64,000 nt of DNA from assembly GCA_027459625.1 (NCBI GenBank), contig DAIDHP010000006.1, positions 1-64,000 of the forward strand, read 5' to 3'. Below, piece by piece: positions 7,913-52,178 of this stretch (position 1 is its first letter; every line of letters starts with the position of its first letter). The notes under the pieces are model-generated. The model had not been told where the DNA came from. It searched no databases and was given only the letters and a program-made list of their open reading frames with translations. The DNA is from Chthonomonadales bacterium (lineage in GTDB: Bacteria > Armatimonadota > Chthonomonadetes > Chthonomonadales > CAJBBX01). Both the position numbers and the translations under genes were made by a program.

Positions 7913-10900
7913 CTACAACTCGATCGTATCATTTTCCACCAACGGATAGATCATATCAATCTCTCTCTCTATCTCCATGGTTTTCCCAAGGGCGGTGACG
8001 ATGCGGCAGTACTGTCGGATATCCTCCAATTCAAGACGGCGTCCTCTCCGATCCTTAATCCACTTTTCGCAGACCTGATACCCCCCCACTTTGTATTCCC
8101 ATACCGATTGCGTCACAGGGGCGAAGTATTGGGTGGCGTTAATTTGAACGCACTCTTTCGAAGCGACATAGCGCAATCCATCTTTCGCACCTTTGAGGAT
8201 TCGACGATCGCCGGTTCCCTCGAACTTACACGCAGGCACATCGAGTTCAGGGGTTCGCAAGAGATGCAGAGCGACAAGCCTATATCCAATTTCCGCAAAT
8301 TCGCGGAAGAGAGACCCGTCGGTAGTGAAAGGAATTCGCGGGAAATCACTTTTTAGAAACTGTTCGTATTTAGCACGGTACAAGGTGGAGTGAAGAATGG
8401 CGTAGACATAGCGGAATATCTCCTCCGGAGATGGCTCAAACCCGTATGACTTCGAGAGAGATTCAATCAAGTCCGGATTTAGGTTCGCACTTCGATTGAT
8501 CGGCTTGTGGTGGTTGAAAAGGTGAATTCGCTCCCCATTTTCGTAAACATAAAGCGGAAAATGATAGTCGATAGTTTTCAAGGACACTGAAACATGATCA
8601 GAGATAATATCTGTCACAAAAGTATGTTGCCAACTACCTACATGTTCAACCCGTTTGGGGGATATAATCGCCATGTTCTCGCCTTCCAGCATATGCCACA
8701 TCACTTCGGTACGGGGCATGCAGAGGAAACCGCGTGAATGACCTGTGTAATAGGTGTAACGAATATCGAAAGGCCTATAAAGAATGGACGCAATTTTATC
8801 ATGAACAATTCCGGAATCTCTTAAATCCTCTTGTGCCATGGTTACGCTCCAATCCCGTGAATCTCTTCCCAAATTATATCCTTGCCGCGCCATATCCGGC
8901 TCCATGCGGGAGAAGACATTGACAGTCTGCCACACCTCTTCGGCCGACCAGTGGATGGTTAGTTTATCTCGTGCGGTCACGATCCCAACGCTGTTGACTG
9001 GGAATATGTCTGGCAGGGATGGAGAGCGGCGATAATCGGTTTCCAGCGAGTCATCCCGTATTGTGAAGAGATAAAGGGGAGAGGATGGATGTAACTCCCT
9101 CCATTCGGTTCGTCCAAGGTTATTTCCCTCAAGCCACGCATATTTGGAATCCCGCAACCCCCATATCTCGGCGAAATGAACGTCAGCGAGCTTTTTAGAA
9201 TCCTTTTTCGTCTGCGTTGGCTGACTTCGTTTGATGAAGAAAGCGATGGCGACTCCTTGACGGATGTCAAAAACGTTCGAGTCCCTGCCGCCATCGGGAC
9301 ATATCTCCCTCTTCAGGGAATTGCCGTGAAGGTTTAGAATATGGATTTTGTCAAATGTTTCCATCAGGCTTTGGCGCATGCCTCGGAAAGTTGGGTTGTC
9401 AAGGTAGGCATGGTTTGTAATCATTCCAACCACCCCGCATCCTGAGCGCTCTATCTTCCATTGGGCGAAACGCAGAAACTTAACATAGTCATCCTGCAGC
9501 CATTTGGGGTTTTTCTCACCCAATGGCTGTCCATCAACTCGCTTGTAATCCTCAATAAGACTGCGTATCCAGTCCCCTTGATTGCAGGATTCCCCGGAAT
9601 ATGGCGGATTGCCGAGAATGACTAGAACGGGTGTTTGTTGCTTGATTTCGCCAGCGAGTCTGGATTCGTCGGCTAGAGCTACGAACCCAGGCAAGCGGCT
9701 CTGCTCCAATTCCTCCATGTCGAAAGTGTTGGTCAGATAAAATTTTACTCGCTCGTCATCATGGAGGCGGTGGCCAAGCTCTTCAAGAAAGAAGTTCATC
9801 TTCAAATGCCCGACGGCGTAAGGCGCCATCATCAACTCGAAGGCGTAAAAATTACTCAGAATATGCCGTCGGATAAATTCCCCGCGCGCTCCGGAGCCGT
9901 AATGACTTTCGAATTCTCGCACCGCTTCCTGAGCCGCGCGGGCGACGAAGGTCATAGTGCCCGCTGCCGGATCAAGCAGTGTGACGCCATCGGACGCCAA
10001 GCCGTCGGTTTTGCCGAATTCGGTTTTTAACAAGTCGTTCAAGGAACGAACGATGTAGGAAACCACCGGTTCCGGAGTGTAATAGACGCCTCTTCGCTCT
10101 CGCTCCTCCGGATCATATCGCTCCAGAAATGTTTCATAGAAATGCACAATTGGATCGCCACCCTTGCCTTCACGGTAGTATCGCTCAAGAATACCGGGGG
10201 CGTCTGCGACGGCGAGGACTTCCGCAATGTCATCGATACACCAGGCAAGGTCATCGGATGGATCGCCGAGGGATATGAAGCGGAATAGATCGCGCAACAC
10301 GCCGATGGTGTGAGGAATATTATCGAAAGCGGCGCGGCGATTGAATCCGTTCCCAGCGCGGGTTCGCGCGGCGAATAGACCGTAAGTGATGGTTTGCGCG
10401 AAGAGATCGGCGAAATCCTCTTCCGATAATGTGCCGATGAGGTAGGTACGGAACGCCTCGAAGAAACTGGCAAGCATATTTGGACGTTCGATTTCCAATT
10501 GAAGCTGCCGAGCCACCACATCACGCATGAAACGAGTACGCTTAGCCAGTTCCATGGCGAGGGATTCCGCTGTGAACGCTTTAGGGATGGAGAAATCCAA
10601 AAAACGCTGAAGCAGTGCATACAACTCTTCCGCTTTTTCAACAGGCGGCGTGGTGTGAAGTTGGTTCAGAACCATCGGACGAGCCACTGTAACGGAATCC
10701 ATCCGCTCGCCATTGCGATAAAGCCGAAACTCCAGGAAATTGGTCAGGATGAGGTTGGGAAAGGTGGTGCGATAACGCAGGAGTTGTTCGGAGTTCTCGA
10801 TGCTGTCCAAGCGCTCCTCGGTAGGTCTTTTCGCTTCGATATAACCGATGATCCGGTCGGTTCCGTTCCATATGCGAAAATCGGGATTGCCCGCGTCGGT

Positions 10901-46479: not shown

Positions 46480-47138
46480 TTAATCCCCTTTGGATTCCCC
46501 TTGCACCCTTCGAAGCTCTTTCACCAACTCATGAACCGTAGTCATCGGGCAACAACGCGAGTAAGGCGTGCCCGGAGCGTGAATTGTTAGCAGGCTCTCC
46601 GCGTTCCGTATGGCGTCAGCCTCGCTTCCCTTGGATTGCATTTTTTCATAATTTCCCACATCTCCTTTGGCATAACTCCCCAAGTGGCGCTTAAGCTTGG
46701 CGCAATAGTCATCACGCGATGTAGCGGATTGCAGGTATTCGAAGTGAAGCAGATACCATAACTCGAACGATTCGTTTGAAAACGCCACGTGAAATCCCTG
46801 GTCTGAAAGAGACTCCGCCTTTTTATGGCGTTATCAAAATCATCCGCCGGAAAATCATCCTTGTCGAAGACGCACCATACCTGATCGAAAGGGCCTTCTT
46901 TTTCATTTAATCGAATAGCTTCTTCCACGACTCGGATGGTTTCCAGCCCTCGGCCATATACATCATTCGTAACCTTGAATGCAAGAAAATAGTTCGGCTC
47001 TGTCTTGCCGCCTTCGCAAACGATCAGGATGCGCGGACGCATTGCACGTCGATCTATCATACGTTCGCGGGTTGCGCGAGTTCTTCTGCCAGGATTTCCA
47101 AACTTTTTCGATCCGCTAGACTTCCCTTGTTTTCTCAC
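46480..47138 (-). pseudogene. RloB-like (AbiLii-like) protein, single frameshift
   Basis: Partner of the AAA ATPase. The chain starts at GTG 47138, overlapping the ATPase stop by four bases (GTGA), a sign of coupled translation. The N-terminal half has RILIVCEGGKTEPNYF and DQVWCVFDKDDFP, the acidic motifs of RloB proteins, TOPRIM-like in spacing. After KDDF-DNAIK the frame breaks at a run of five A (46832-46836). One more A would restore KKAESLSDQGFHVAFSNESFELWYLLHFEYLQ, the best conserved RloB stretch, which continues to TGA 46480. The full protein would have about 220 residues. Homopolymer sequencing error or true inactivation cannot be told apart here. Confidence 0.78.
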
Positions 47139-48523
47139 GAGATCGCCTCCGCGTTATCCTGTCCTTCGGATCGACGATTGTTTTTATTAAACTCCTCCAG
47201 GAAGAGGCGACCCAAATCGCCAAGATAAGGGATAGCGCCATACCGCCCTTGTATGTAATCCTTCTCATAACTCGCGTCATTACGGATACTGCGTCCTTTG
47301 CCTTTAATCGAAGGCAACTTAAATTCGGCAAGGGAATACAACCTTGTGGCTTCGTTACCGTCCTTCTCCATAAAGTATATCTGGTCTCTCCTGAACCTTC
47401 TGCGGTCAAGAAGATTGGTGTCATGCGTTACGCAAATGAGTTGTGCGTTTTTTGGGTTGGTCTCGGGGGAATTAAACAGACGTATGATCTCACTCGTTAT
47501 TAACGGATGCATGCGAGTATCGATTTCATCGATAAAAAGCGTCCAACCATTTGTGAGTACATCTAAAATCGGTACCAATAAGGCGATAACCTTCCGAGTT
47601 CCTTCCGATTCCATCAGATGTCCGAAGAATGGTATTTCACGAACGATATTACCTTCGTTATCGCGTTGTGCATGATATGTCACGAATTCCAATTGGGTAT
47701 CCATATTGGATGAAATGGAGATGTCCGCGCCAGGAGAAACTCTCTCTTTTCCAAGGTTGGAGGATTTAGCATCCTTTTTTTCCTTTATCGGTTCTTCAAT
47801 GACCGATATATCTCTAATCCCTAAATCCAAACGACGCACTAACTCCACAATTTGTTTTTTATAGCGCCCTTTTGCAATGCAGGATATCGTGAAAGGAAGA
47901 TAACCTTCATCCCCAATAGTATTGAGGGCCCGGCAGTTCATGGTAAACCACTGTAATAATCGTTTGGCAACAGGTTTGTTGAACTGTGCGGATACAGAGA
48001 GGAACAAGGCGTTATCCCTCGTCATCTCCTCCAACCCCCGACACTCGCGGAACCGATCCTTGACATATATTCCATCCGTATCTCGGGTGAACAACTCCAC
48101 TTCCACCCTGGTGGGCACAAAATAGAGCCACTCCTCCGTCACTTTTTGGCTGGTGGCGGCGAAACCGTAGCGATATTGAACTCCATCAAGTAAAAACACA
48201 ACTTCAAACGCGGAAGGTTGATCAATGGTTGAGGTATTCAAGCTAAATGGTTTGACTGGTATCATATCGGTCGCTTGTCCCTCGCGAGCCGAGTTCGCTA
48301 CAAAATCACGCATGAAGTGTAACGCTTGCACCAGATTGCTCTTGCCGCTAGCATTGGCGCCGTAGATGAGCCCTGATCGAAGCAACGCCAGTTTATTGTT
48401 GACCTCAATGACATTGTCGGTATCAAGCTGCTTGTCGGATGATCGGAGTTTGGCGGCCACCATGCTCAGGGTGACTCGCTCCTTGAACGATCTGTAATTT
48501 TGCACGCTGAATTCCACAAGCAT
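47135..48523 (-). CDS. RloA/AbiLi-like AAA ATPase
   Basis: An OLD/SMC-type ATPase (COG1106 kind) of 462 residues. It starts MLVEFSVQNYRSFKE, a standard opening. Walker A is GANASGKSNLVQA (about 55-67), the signature region is near LMESEGTRKVIAL, Walker B is TLFIDEIDTRMHP and the final His-containing loop is ICVTHDTNLLD. This ATPase family pairs with RloB in loci linked to restriction genes and in the lactococcal AbiL phage-resistance system. I chose ATG 48523, with GAAGG just upstream, over GTG 48535. The ATPase probably senses infection and licenses the RloB effector; that is inference. Confidence 0.87.
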   Translation of the reverse strand: MLVEFSVQNYRSFKERVTLSMVAAKLRSSDKQLDTDNVIEVNNKLALLRSGLIYGANASGKSNLVQALHFMRDFVANSAREGQATDMIPVKPFSLNTSTIDQPSAFEVVFLLDGVQYRYGFAATSQKVTEEWLYFVPTRVEVELFTRDTDGIYVKDRFRECRGLEEMTRDNALFLSVSAQFNKPVAKRLLQWFTMNCRALNTIGDEGYLPFTISCIAKGRYKKQIVELVRRLDLGIRDISVIEEPIKEKKDAKSSNLGKERVSPGADISISSNMDTQLEFVTYHAQRDNEGNIVREIPFFGHLMESEGTRKVIALLVPILDVLTNGWTLFIDEIDTRMHPLITSEIIRLFNSPETNPKNAQLICVTHDTNLLDRRRFRRDQIYFMEKDGNEATRLYSLAEFKLPSIKGKGRSIRNDASYEKDYIQGRYGAIPYLGDLGRLFLEEFNKNNRRSEGQDNAEAIS

Positions 48524-49067
48524 CGCCTTCGTCACCTTTCCTAGGTTGTTAATTCAACTATATGAGTATATACCACATATATATCCATTATGTTATCATA
48601 TAATGCAGATATTATGTCTTTATTTGTGAATTTTTCACATATATAGAGTTTTACGAAGAAACTGCCGATAAACATCCTCGCAGGAGGAGTTATCTTAGGG
48701 AAGGACGAACTACGAAGATCTTAAGGGTTGAGGGGAACGTCTGCCAACACATTCAAACATGCAAAAATCTCTAATCCGCACCTTGCAAATGAATAGATGT
48801 CAGCAAACTTTACTTAAAAATACCCGAAACTTTTCTGCTAAGCATTACGTCTTAATGGCGTGCACTTCCTCGTAACCATGTTCACGCCATCCCTCTCCGG
48901 TCATTACGGAGAAATATTGGCTTAATCATTGTATTTTTTGACATTAGCAGACGGTCAACCATTCCTTTGGTTCGTTTGGTTAATACACATGCATTCACCG
49001 CGTTAAGGGAAAACACAGGGTAAGTAACGACCGCTTAGGATAACATACTCGTTCCTTGGAGGAAAAA
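48524..49067. other. Divergent control region of the defence island
   Basis: It separates the ATPase gene (minus) from the helicase gene (plus). The left 150 bases are very AT-rich with overlapping TATAAT-like boxes. TGTGAATTTTTCACA (48625-48639) is a palindrome with 6-bp arms and could be an operator. TTTGACATT near 48936 may be a -35 for the helicase gene. No gene was seen. Confidence 0.5.
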
Positions 49068-51164
49068 ATGCGCTTTAAAAACGTGGGGCTGCAGTACTTA
49101 CGTCAGGCTCTCAACGACCCTGACGCCGATTTCCGTGACGGACAATGGGAGGCGATAGAATCCCTGGTCGTCCGCAAGTCACGTCTGCTTCTCGTGCAAA
49201 GAACCGGCTGGGGCAAAAGCCTCGTCTATTTCATCGCAACCCGCTTTCTGCGTGAAGCAGGGCACGGGCCTACGCTACTCGTCTCCCCGCTGCTCTCCCT
49301 CATGCGTAACCAAATCGAGATGGCGTCACGCCTGGGAATCAACGCGCAAACGGTCAATTCCAGCAATTCCGGGGAATGGGAGACGGTATATGAGCGACTG
49401 CTGTCGGACAAGGTGGATGTCCTGTTCATCTCCCCGGAGCGTTTCGCCAACGAGGAGTTCCTCGAAAGAGTGATGCCTCTCCTCTCCAAAGGGAACGGGC
49501 TTTTCACCGTGGATGAGGCTCATTGCATATCGGATTGGGGGCACGACTTCCGTCCCGATTACATGCGCATCGGTAGAATGCTCAAGGAGTTCCCGCCGGG
49601 GTCCCCCGCATTGGCGGTTACCGCCACAGCGAACGATCGCGTGGTGGAGGATATCGTCAGTCAGATTGGTCCCGATCTCGAAGTCATCCGCGGCTCCTTG
49701 CACCGGGACAGCATTCGTTTGCAGAACATCCGACTCCCGAGTCAGGCGGAAAGGATGGCGTGGCTTTCGGAGAATTTACCCAAGCTGCCTGGCAGCGGAG
49801 TGATCTACACTCTCACGGTCAAGGATTCGGACAGGGTGGCGAACTGGCTCCGTCTCAAGGGGCATAATGTCCAACCTTATCACGCCGGAAAGGATGGCGA
49901 TGATACGGACAGACCTCTCCTCGAACAAAAGCTTCTGAAAAACGAGGTGAAGGCGCTCGTGGCGACGGTCGCGCTTGGAATGGGGTTCGACAAGCCCGAT
50001 CTCGGCTTTGTTATCCACTTTCAACGCCCACCCTCGCTCGTTCACTACTATCAGCAGATTGGGAGGGCTGGCCGAGCGATGGACGTGGCGTACGGCGTAC
50101 TGCTATCGGGGAAAGAGGATAACGACATCGCGGATTATTTCCTGCGTACCGCGTTGCCTCCGGACGAACGCATCGTCGAGGTGTTAACCGAACTCGAGAA
50201 AGCGAACGACGGTTACTCCGAGCCTGAACTTATGAACCGACTGAACGTTCGTAAAAGCCTGATGGATAAGATTCTGAAGATTACAACTATTATCAATCCG
50301 TCGCCTGTGGTGAAAAGAGACGGGCGCTACTATCGCACCGCGACGGAATGGAAACCTAACACCGATAAGTTCGAACGACTCACCGCAGCGCGATTGCAGG
50401 AACAGATGAGCATCGAAAGTTACGCCCGCTCCTCGGAATGCCTCATGGAGCTAATCGAGCGGGAGCTCAGCGACCCCTATGCGAAGAGATGCGGTGTGTG
50501 CGCCAACTGCGTCGGAGAACCCCTCCTGCCGATCTCTCCGAAAAAGGAGGTGGTCATGGAGGCGATTGAATTCCTGAGACAGTGTGACGATCCCATCACA
50601 CCTCGCAAAATGTGGCCCGCCGCAATTTCACAAACCCATGATGGTTTCAAGGGCAAAATCAGCGCTGAATTGCAGGCTAAAGAGGGCAGAGCGCTGTGCT
50701 TCTGGGGGGATGCTGGTTGGGGGGAGCTGGTGAAACGCGGAAAGATGATTGACGGCTATTTCCCGGACGATCTGGTGAAGGCGATGGAGGAGATGATTCG
50801 ACTTCGTTGGAAACCGGAGCCCTTTCCGACCTGGATCACGTGCGTATCCTCCCTCACGAAACCTGGTCTGGTGCCCGAGTTCACGGAAAGACTGGCGGCT
50901 AAACTGGGACTTCCTTTCAAACCATGCGTCATCAAACATACGACAACAAACAATCAAAAGGAGATGGAGAACAGCCATTTCCAGCTTAAAAACATCCTTG
51001 ATGCGTTCGAAGTCGTGCCGGATAAAGTTTTACGGGGACCGGTCTTGTTAGTGGATGATATGGTAGACTCGGGATGGACATTAACTGTCATCGCAAGGCT
51101 GCTTCGACTTGCGGGGGCGGAGTGTGTGTACCCGGCCGCCTTGGCTAGGGTGATAGGCGATTAA
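49068..51164 (+). CDS. RecQ-type helicase fused to a phosphoribosyltransferase domain
   Basis: A 698-residue ATP-dependent DNA helicase with an added transferase domain. RecA-like domain 1 has Walker A RTGWGKS (about 45-51), DEAH (149-152) and VTATAN. Domain 2 has ATVALGMGFDKPD and QQIGRAGRA (330-338). Four Cys (458, 475, 478, 481) match the RecQ zinc-binding site. There is no clear HRDC domain; instead residues about 590-698 form a ComF/PRTase-like fold with the PRPP loop VLLVDDMVDSGWT (659-671). ATG 49068 sits behind a perfect GGAGG. The DprA-like gene follows after 18 bases. The pairing recalls ShosTA (PRTase plus DprA) with a helicase attached. Confidence 0.9.
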   Translation: MRFKNVGLQYLRQALNDPDADFRDGQWEAIESLVVRKSRLLLVQRTGWGKSLVYFIATRFLREAGHGPTLLVSPLLSLMRNQIEMASRLGINAQTVNSSNSGEWETVYERLLSDKVDVLFISPERFANEEFLERVMPLLSKGNGLFTVDEAHCISDWGHDFRPDYMRIGRMLKEFPPGSPALAVTATANDRVVEDIVSQIGPDLEVIRGSLHRDSIRLQNIRLPSQAERMAWLSENLPKLPGSGVIYTLTVKDSDRVANWLRLKGHNVQPYHAGKDGDDTDRPLLEQKLLKNEVKALVATVALGMGFDKPDLGFVIHFQRPPSLVHYYQQIGRAGRAMDVAYGVLLSGKEDNDIADYFLRTALPPDERIVEVLTELEKANDGYSEPELMNRLNVRKSLMDKILKITTIINPSPVVKRDGRYYRTATEWKPNTDKFERLTAARLQEQMSIESYARSSECLMELIERELSDPYAKRCGVCANCVGEPLLPISPKKEVVMEAIEFLRQCDDPITPRKMWPAAISQTHDGFKGKISAELQAKEGRALCFWGDAGWGELVKRGKMIDGYFPDDLVKAMEEMIRLRWKPEPFPTWITCVSSLTKPGLVPEFTERLAAKLGLPFKPCVIKHTTTNNQKEMENSHFQLKNILDAFEVVPDKVLRGPVLLVDDMVDSGWTLTVIARLLRLAGAECVYPAALARVIGD

Positions 51165-51182
51165 AGGGGGGAGAGGAAAGTG

Positions 51183-52178
51183 ATGGAATCGATAAGCACG
51201 GATGCGAAGGCGACGCTACTACTGGTTTCGCAGCTAAGACAAAAGGCTAACGGAGACGCGAAAATTCTATCTCCAACCGAATTCGACGCCCTGATGACTT
51301 GGATGGTATCACAGAATATCTCCCTAAGCGACCTATTTGGCGCTGAAAAGATCGAGAGCGAACTTGACGGTTATCCGGAAAAGGAGCGAATCGTCAGCCT
51401 CATGTCTCGAAGGTTCACGCTTTCAGTCGCCCTGGAGTCTTGGAGTTCCCAGTCGATCAGCGCTCTGTGCGTCAAGGATAGTTTGTACCCCGTCAAATGG
51501 ATCGAGAAGCTCAAGCGCGTCCCCCCCATCGTGTTCTTCGCTGGCAATCTCGAACTGGTGAAAAAGGGGGATGTCGCCATCGTTGGTTCGAGGAATATCG
51601 AGGAAAGCGCGGAAGATTTCACGCGCAAACTGGGGAAAACCTGTGCGGCGGTTGGCGTTCAGGTTGTATCCGGCGGCGCCAAGGGGGTCGATCAGATCTC
51701 GTTGACATCCTGTCTTGAAAACGGAGGGACGGCGATAGCGGTGTTGGCGGACAGCCTGTCGAAAGCCACTCTCTCCCCCGCCTACCGCGAGTATCTTCGC
51801 AACGGCTCCCTTTTGCTACTGTCGCCGTATGATCCCGAGGCGCATTTCATGGTAGGGAACGCCATGGCGCGCAACAAGCTGATTTACTCTCTCTCCGATA
51901 TTGCCGTGGTGGTGAGCTCGGAGGCGAAAACCGGGGGCACATGGGCGGGCGCCGCGGAAAACCTTAAAAACGGATGGGCGAGGTTGTATGTGCGATCATC
52001 AACCAACTTGGTTCCGGGAAACAAGGAATTGCTTGCCTTAGGAGGGAAGCCGTTAAAAGATACGGATGCGGATAATGAAGATATCGTAAAAACAATATGC
52101 AAGCAATGTGAACCGAATACATGCGCCGCTGCGGAAACAAAACAATTGGACGGACAACAGACTCTTCCGTTATTTTAA
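51183..52178 (+). CDS. DprA-like SLOG-fold protein
   Basis: A 331-residue Rossmann-like protein related to DprA. The core has VAIVGSRNIE (132-141), VVSGGAKGVDQIS (161-173), AIAVLADSLS, then ARNKLIYSLSD (229-239) and TGGTWAGA (250-257), the ligand-binding loops of the DprA/SLOG fold. The first 95 residues resemble the DprA SAM-like helical lead. The C-terminal DprA winged helix is replaced by a short tail with CKQCEPNTC. GGGGGAGAGGAAAG precedes the start; ATG 51183 and GTG 51180 are adjacent. In ShosTA the DprA-like partner restrains the PRTase; a similar control of the helicase-PRTase is proposed here. Confidence 0.85.
   Translation: MESISTDAKATLLLVSQLRQKANGDAKILSPTEFDALMTWMVSQNISLSDLFGAEKIESELDGYPEKERIVSLMSRRFTLSVALESWSSQSISALCVKDSLYPVKWIEKLKRVPPIVFFAGNLELVKKGDVAIVGSRNIEESAEDFTRKLGKTCAAVGVQVVSGGAKGVDQISLTSCLENGGTAIAVLADSLSKATLSPAYREYLRNGSLLLLSPYDPEAHFMVGNAMARNKLIYSLSDIAVVVSSEAKTGGTWAGAAENLKNGWARLYVRSSTNLVPGNKELLALGGKPLKDTDADNEDIVKTICKQCEPNTCAAAETKQLDGQQTLPLF

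Follow-up and report, generated by a model that had tools for sequence, protein, structure and literature searches.

A RecQ-type helicase that ends in a phosphoribosyltransferase (PRTase) and is followed by a DprA-like gene poses the question of what such a pair does and where in the cell it acts. The pair lies at positions 49068 to 52178 of a 64,000-nucleotide stretch of a Chthonomonadales bacterium (the whole stretch is called the window below), and an earlier note, made from the letters of the DNA, had taken it for a novel, helicase-armed relative of the ShosTA module. As judged from profile matches, the locus is a full-length member of the PsyrTA/RqlHI toxin-antitoxin family; because PADLOC and the literature (2013-2015) already hold this family, the locus is not a novel system, and the claim of novelty is dropped. 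The psyrTA genes of P. syringae were reportedly described by Sberro in 2013. The new part is a clamp-like tail that recurs across PsyrA, ShosA and the partners of a second RecQ-PRTase family. In the reading preferred here, to which a probability of roughly 60% is given, PsyrTA is a toxin-antitoxin and candidate defence module that would be docked at replication forks by a predicted clamp-binding motif in the tail of the antitoxin, PsyrA.

The antitoxin PsyrA and its C-terminal tail

The predicted antitoxin gene, psyrA/rqlI (51180..52178, forward strand), has a GTG start and encodes a DprA-like (SLOG) protein of 332 residues, in the form that lacks a helix-turn-helix (HTH). The gap from psyrT is 15-18 bases, and it is 18, as the earlier note had counted, when the alternative ATG start at 51183 is used. 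The PADLOC profile for PsyrA (PDLC03927) matched with 340.8 bits (E 2.9e-102) over profile positions 2-313 of 398, and the Pfam DprA/SLOG profile PF02481 matched with 121 bits; the AlphaFold2 model had a predicted local distance difference test score (pLDDT) of 91, and Foldseek matched it to S. pneumoniae DprA (3uqz) and E. coli ShosA (8zva). The final ~85 profile positions, which make up the HTH, are not covered by the window PsyrA, in agreement with the earlier statement that the usual C-terminal winged helix is missing. The HTH was not treated as defining, since it is dispensable for neutralisation in E. coli and absent from many PsyrA homologues. The housekeeping DprA profile TIGR00732 gave the window PsyrA 102.8 bits, below its cut-off of 191.15, and a separate housekeeping DprA above that cut-off is present in the host genome.

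The last residues of the protein (313-332; 52116..52175, forward strand) form a disordered tail with pLDDT below 50, the sequence of which is not conserved. The Cys-rich character first noticed in this tail is real in the window PsyrA; however, the tail in the sister genus has one Cys, so the character is not conserved and a functional zinc site is ruled out. On comparison of the tails, the recurrent feature is a clamp-like motif, which had been overlooked, and Cys-richness is a local feature. In the window, the predicted beta-clamp-binding motif is QQTLPLF at the free C-terminus (residues 326-332; 52155..52175, forward strand), and in the sister genus it is QQILPLF. The bacterial beta-clamp-binding motif is QL[S/D]LF or QxxLF, with a hexapeptide form as in Hda QLSLPL (PMC12309361), and a revised consensus has an aliphatic residue at position 2 (PMC13254535). 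The window motif, QQTLPL(F), has the QxxLF/QxxLxL form and lies in an accessible region (pLDDT <50). Like Hda and other clamp binders, the window PsyrA carries a short Q-x-x-L-x-L/QxxLF peptide at a flexible end, and QLSLPL of Hda resembles QxTLPL; clamp binding by Hda and the others has been demonstrated (PMC12309361), whereas that of the window PsyrA is predicted from sequence. The host has a DnaN gene, and its DnaE carries QGDLF.

Motif occurrence was counted with the pattern Q.[SDEGTNA][LM][FL] or Q..[LIM].[LF], which was drawn up after the PsyrA tails had been seen and was fixed before the hold-outs (the second RecQ-PRTase family and ShosA). PsyrA C-terminal ends are alike, and besides those of the window and the sister genus they include QGSLPLF, QGTLPLI, QPSLF, QASLF and QLSLL; in HTH-bearing PsyrA the motif usually lies in the linker before the HTH (QLGLTLF, QADLF, QPDLL, QRSLF). 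The motif was found in 40 of 65 PsyrA tails, compared to 8.2 +/- 2.5 in 500 composition shuffles (maximum 16) and 7.9 in same-length windows of the PsyrA folded body. Tails that had not been used to form the idea gave 23 of 36 (against 4.8), and one PsyrA per 45%-identity cluster gave 12 of 18 (against 2.0). Furthermore, when the first residue of the pattern was varied, the excess was seen with Q (40 vs 8.2), and the counts for N, E, K, S, T, D, R, A and P were near or below background.

A similar end was found outside PsyrA. The second RecQ-PRTase family (loci L205-L208 and L214-L219, other phylum genomes) comprises proteins of 826-1106 residues whose genes adjoin a DprA-like gene; their domains are a canonical RecQ, zinc, RQC (HTH_40 in 2 of the 4 scanned) and a terminal PRTase (..DDFYDSGAT..), and in PADLOC only the helicase half matches, to PsyrT/DpdF. 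This family shares with the window locus a RecQ fused to a PRTase at its C-terminus and, next to it, a DprA-like protein with a clamp-like end; unlike the window locus, it has a canonical RecQ with RQC before the PRTase, and the two share 30% identity in the helicase. Its DprA-like partners end in QLSLF, QLELF, QLALF or QLDLGL. In the last 15 residues, the pattern fixed beforehand matched 6 of 8 partners against 0.25, and 6 of 8 against 0.05 when an aliphatic position 2 was required; the remaining two read QLGLW and QLKLF, and all eight are clamp-like by eye. ShosA, scored with the same fixed pattern, had the motif in 3 of 6 proteins (QLSLL, QQDLNL, QLSLF) against 0.37. As a general feature of DprA proteins, the motif is unsupported, as the linkers of housekeeping DprA gave 3 of 30 against 1.4, which is not significant; a few housekeeping DprA (L177, L169, L139) have QPALPLPL, QTSLNF and QGTLDL in the stretch that joins the Rossmann fold to the winged helix. 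With confidence a shade below that placed in the preferred reading itself, these data point to a predicted beta-clamp motif that PsyrA, ShosA and the undescribed second-family partners share and that would dock the modules on the replication machinery, an antitoxin then being a neutralising DprA fold plus a separate clamp tether. No clamp motif was reported for RqlI, PsyrA or ShosA in the open-access papers searched.

Several observations weigh against the clamp as the target of the tail. When an aliphatic position 2 is required, the count in PsyrA tails falls to 9 of 65, with 2.8 +/- 1.6 expected; the window motif has Gln at that position, outside the revised consensus, and the clamp affinity of its tail may therefore be low; and the Q form is missing in about a third of PsyrA tails. 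In addition, E. coli RqlI (400 residues, L189) has QPELF at residues 320-324, so RqlI(1-320) is without PELF and the HTH. This truncated protein still neutralises RqlH, with a nearly complete microaerobic rescue as against a partial one with the full-length protein (PMC4670107), and the motif is thus dispensable for neutralisation; the authors discussed the truncation for the HTH alone, and the clamp is unmentioned in that paper. It is rather doubtful, however, that the locus is an ordinary PsyrTA in which the QxxL[F/L] tail serves for docking to PsyrT or some other protein, or simply results from tail composition. Such an explanation would account for the frequent P, G, Q or K at position 2 and the modest enrichment under the strict consensus, and RqlI does physically bind RqlH (PMC4670107); it sits poorly with the specificity for Q as first residue, with the presence of both penta- and hexapeptide clamp forms, with a motif that shifts between C-terminus and linker like a free short motif, and with the canonical QLSLF, QLELF, QLALF and QLDLGL ends of the second family. 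The E. coli truncation also speaks against it, since a motif that neutralisation does not need must act in some other step, of which targeting is the simplest.

The toxin PsyrT and its known relatives

The psyrT/rqlH gene (49068..51164; ATG start, 698 residues; this and all features of the protein lie on the forward strand) encodes the predicted toxin, a RecQ-like helicase with a C-terminal PRTase. The PADLOC profile PDLC03928 matched residues 7-695 over profile positions 8-684 of 689 (894.8 bits, E 8.7e-270), and the protein is 84% identical to the sister-genus copy. The RecQ motif set and four zinc cysteines that had been recognised at first sight were all read in the sequence: the Walker A motif TGWGKS (49203..49220), invariant in 47 relatives, with K50 equivalent to the K49 mutated in RqlH; the DEAH box (residues 149-152; 49512..49523), of which D149 (RqlH D148), E150 and H152 are invariant; the RecQ-type QQIGRAGR (QxGRAGR) motif; and the zinc-binding tetracysteine region C458, C475, C478 and C481 (50439..50510), read from the translation, with C481 retained in 27 of 37 relatives that are not lone and in 10 of 10 that are lone, i.e., that have no PsyrA partner. 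The canonical RecQ equivalog TIGR01389 gave 278 bits, below its cut-off of 640. No Pfam match to an HRDC domain was found in the window PsyrT, and its place is taken, as had been proposed, by a domain with a phosphoribosyl pyrophosphate (PRPP) loop, the PRTase domain at about residues 587-695 (50826..51152). Pfam PF00156 (Pribosyltran) matched this region with 27.5 bits, just above the cut-off of 26.3, and the PADLOC ShosT profile matched residues 587-695 with 27 bits only. The AlphaFold2 model has a mean pLDDT of 90 with nearly all residues confident, and residues 590-690 are mostly above 90; the first 50 Foldseek matches listed for full-length PsyrT were RecQ helicases only, with no PRTase among them, and the evidence for the PRTase fold therefore comes from Pfam and the confident model. 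The PRPP loop VLLVDDMVDSGWTLT spans residues 659-673 (51042..51086), and VLLVDDMVDSGWT covers its residues 659-671; D663, D664 and W670 are invariant in the 47 relatives, and both aspartates are invariant in paired and lone homologues alike.

RqlHI of extraintestinal E. coli has the gene order, full-length domains, PRPP-loop aspartates, K50/D149 equivalents and DprA-fold partner of the window locus; it differs in that RqlI has a C-terminal HTH with QPELF in the linker, whereas the window PsyrA has no HTH and carries its motif at the free C-terminus. In E. coli, RqlH without RqlI is genotoxic, with SOS, filamentation and mutation; the PRPP-loop mutant D663A loses toxicity, the isolated PRTase is non-toxic, and RqlI binds and neutralises RqlH (PMC4670107). 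These findings agree with the part of the earlier model that made the PRTase the effector and the DprA-like protein its restraint. The model as a whole, in which abnormal DNA ends are detected by the helicase, which activates the PRTase, while the DprA-like protein serves as sensor or restraint, is unlikely, although helicase and PRTase do share one chain and DprA proteins bind single-stranded DNA. RqlH mutants in Walker A and DEAH (helicase-dead) have a viability worse than wild type (PMC4670107); the motor would thus appear to restrain the PRTase rather than activate it. The RqlH of M. smegmatis, a lone RecQ-PRTase as in other actinomycetes, is likewise a RecQ-type helicase with a PRTase, and the helicase remains active without this PRTase (PMC4670107, PMC5512222). 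On the chromosome of E. coli S931B (L190), rqlI is annotated as frameshifted and rqlH is intact, though loss of rqlI is reported to be harmful.

The parallel with ShosTA holds as well, as both systems have a PRTase toxin and a DprA-fold partner, and ShosA of phage P2_4C9 has a clamp-like end, QLSLLGDE. Unlike the window locus, ShosTA (from a P2-like prophage hotspot) has its antitoxin gene first, and ShosT is a HAD-PRTase without a helicase; ShosTA is therefore a cousin and not the same family. In a 2025 review citing Pu et al. 2025 (PMC12593503), ShosT is a PRTase plus pyrophosphatase that disturbs purine metabolism, ShosA is a DNA-binding protein that probably brings in further factors for homologous recombination, and ShosTA is connected with DNA duplications and with T7 Gp0.7 as trigger. 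It is conceivable, as a tentative alternative, that PsyrA repairs rather than inhibits: the PRTase would disturb nucleotide pools or DNA, and the clamp-docked partner would promote recombinational repair, as proposed for ShosTA. SOS induction by RqlH is in keeping with this, and a clamp motif on ShosA (QLSLL) would name one recruited factor; however, the physical interaction of RqlH and RqlI suggests direct restraint, PsyrT is without the HAD domain of ShosT, and rescue in E. coli does not require the motif. As a separate observation, the E. coli plasmid pLAO18 (L209, 34711-40370) has a DprA-like gene followed by a gene for a 1558-residue protein in which HAD, a PRTase-like loop (IIDDVLTSGATT), DUF559 and a RecQ-like helicase are joined. 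Such a protein could link ShosT to the RecQ-PRTase systems; Klebsiella and Raoultella plasmids have DprA-like genes similar to that of pLAO18.

Pairing and genomic neighbourhood

In a survey of 291 genomes of the phylum Armatimonadota, full-length PsyrT matches separated clearly from plain RecQ, and PsyrA lay directly 3' of PsyrT in 33 of the 34 loci with enough downstream sequence, so the expected recurrence of the DprA-like partner was seen. Among named genomes, PsyrA was found in most phyla and was missing, with few exceptions, in Actinomycetes and haloarchaea. In a tree built from 110 PsyrT proteins, the label 'lone' required 4 changes, compared to 33.9 with shuffled labels; paired and lone forms each group together. 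Lost PRTase catalysis as the reason why lone homologues need no antitoxin was ruled out, since D663/D664 are invariant in both. Almost no PsyrA was found in the phage and viral collections. One Bacteroidetes metagenome-assembled genome (L076) has two successive PsyrA-like open reading frames (ORFs) 3' of PsyrT, the first of which ends in QGELFD.

To compare neighbourhoods, the 80 nearest neighbours each of paired and lone loci were matched to PADLOC at E <= 1e-20. The neighbours of paired loci gave 267 PADLOC families (type I restriction-modification (RM), BREX PglZ, Hma, SoFic, DRT, Gabija), and those of the lone actinomycete loci gave 0, in line with the enrichment beside defence genes that the earlier note had named as support. 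On an E. coli plasmid, PsyrTA is embedded in a type I RM operon, and in Acinetobacter it lies inside BREX; unlike the window locus, lone RqlH in the actinomycete loci examined has neither a PsyrA partner nor neighbouring defence genes. Nevertheless, a defence role has two results to contend with: the contrast between paired and lone neighbourhoods is confounded with phylum because the lone set is entirely actinomycete, and no protection against phage could be detected for the native PsyrTA of E. coli NILS69 (PMC12409345). It is highly improbable that the pair is a housekeeping operon for DNA repair or competence that plays no part in defence. DprA and ComF-like PRTase domains are known in competence systems, and lone RqlH is common in Actinomycetes, away from defence genes; however, the ORF list and Pfam scan showed no recognisable competence genes next to the operon of the window, paired loci are surrounded by defence genes such as those of RM and BREX, and the host keeps its separate housekeeping DprA.

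The window has defence genes of its own next to PsyrTA. An AbiLi-type ATPase gene (47135..48535, reverse strand; PADLOC AbiLi, 340 bits; PF13304) adjoins a frameshifted AbiLii/RloB-like gene (46480..47138, reverse strand), which is split into two ORFs in different frames that cover RloB positions 1-94 and 102-195. The frameshift lies near 46.8 kb, and the ATPase partner is intact; the frameshift may reflect a true pseudogene or a fault in the assembly. At the same locus in the sister genus (L120), the AbiL pair of the window is replaced by a probable type II RM pair, made up of an ORF resembling a methyltransferase (8904-9998) and one that probably encodes a restriction endonuclease (8132-8899), and the genes on the PsyrA side are conserved (ORF functions assigned by eye). 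As read from these gene contents, there is gene turnover beside PsyrTA.

Proposed action at the replication fork

In the preferred reading, PsyrT would be a 3'-5' RecQ-like motor with a PRTase that is genotoxic when unrestrained, and the DprA-fold PsyrA would bind PsyrT and either restrain it or undo its damage. The disordered PsyrA tail, as a targeting device separate from the neutralising part, may dock the pair on the beta sliding clamp, and the pair would then be poised at replication forks; a disturbance of the fork, be it phage takeover or another insult, might free or mislocate the toxin. As a guess, the PRTase might act on a nucleotide or a base present at the fork. The clamp-tag-like end of the antitoxin suggests that the modules work at replication forks, and such a placement, if true, would agree with the observed SOS induction and filamentation. 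Were ShosA to carry a clamp motif, this would also be compatible with a PsyrA that repairs damage instead of blocking the enzyme. In the 2025 review, ShosA 'likely recruits additional factors' (PMC12593503); if the clamp peptide is indeed common to PsyrA, ShosA and the second family, it would name the factor that ShosA recruits.

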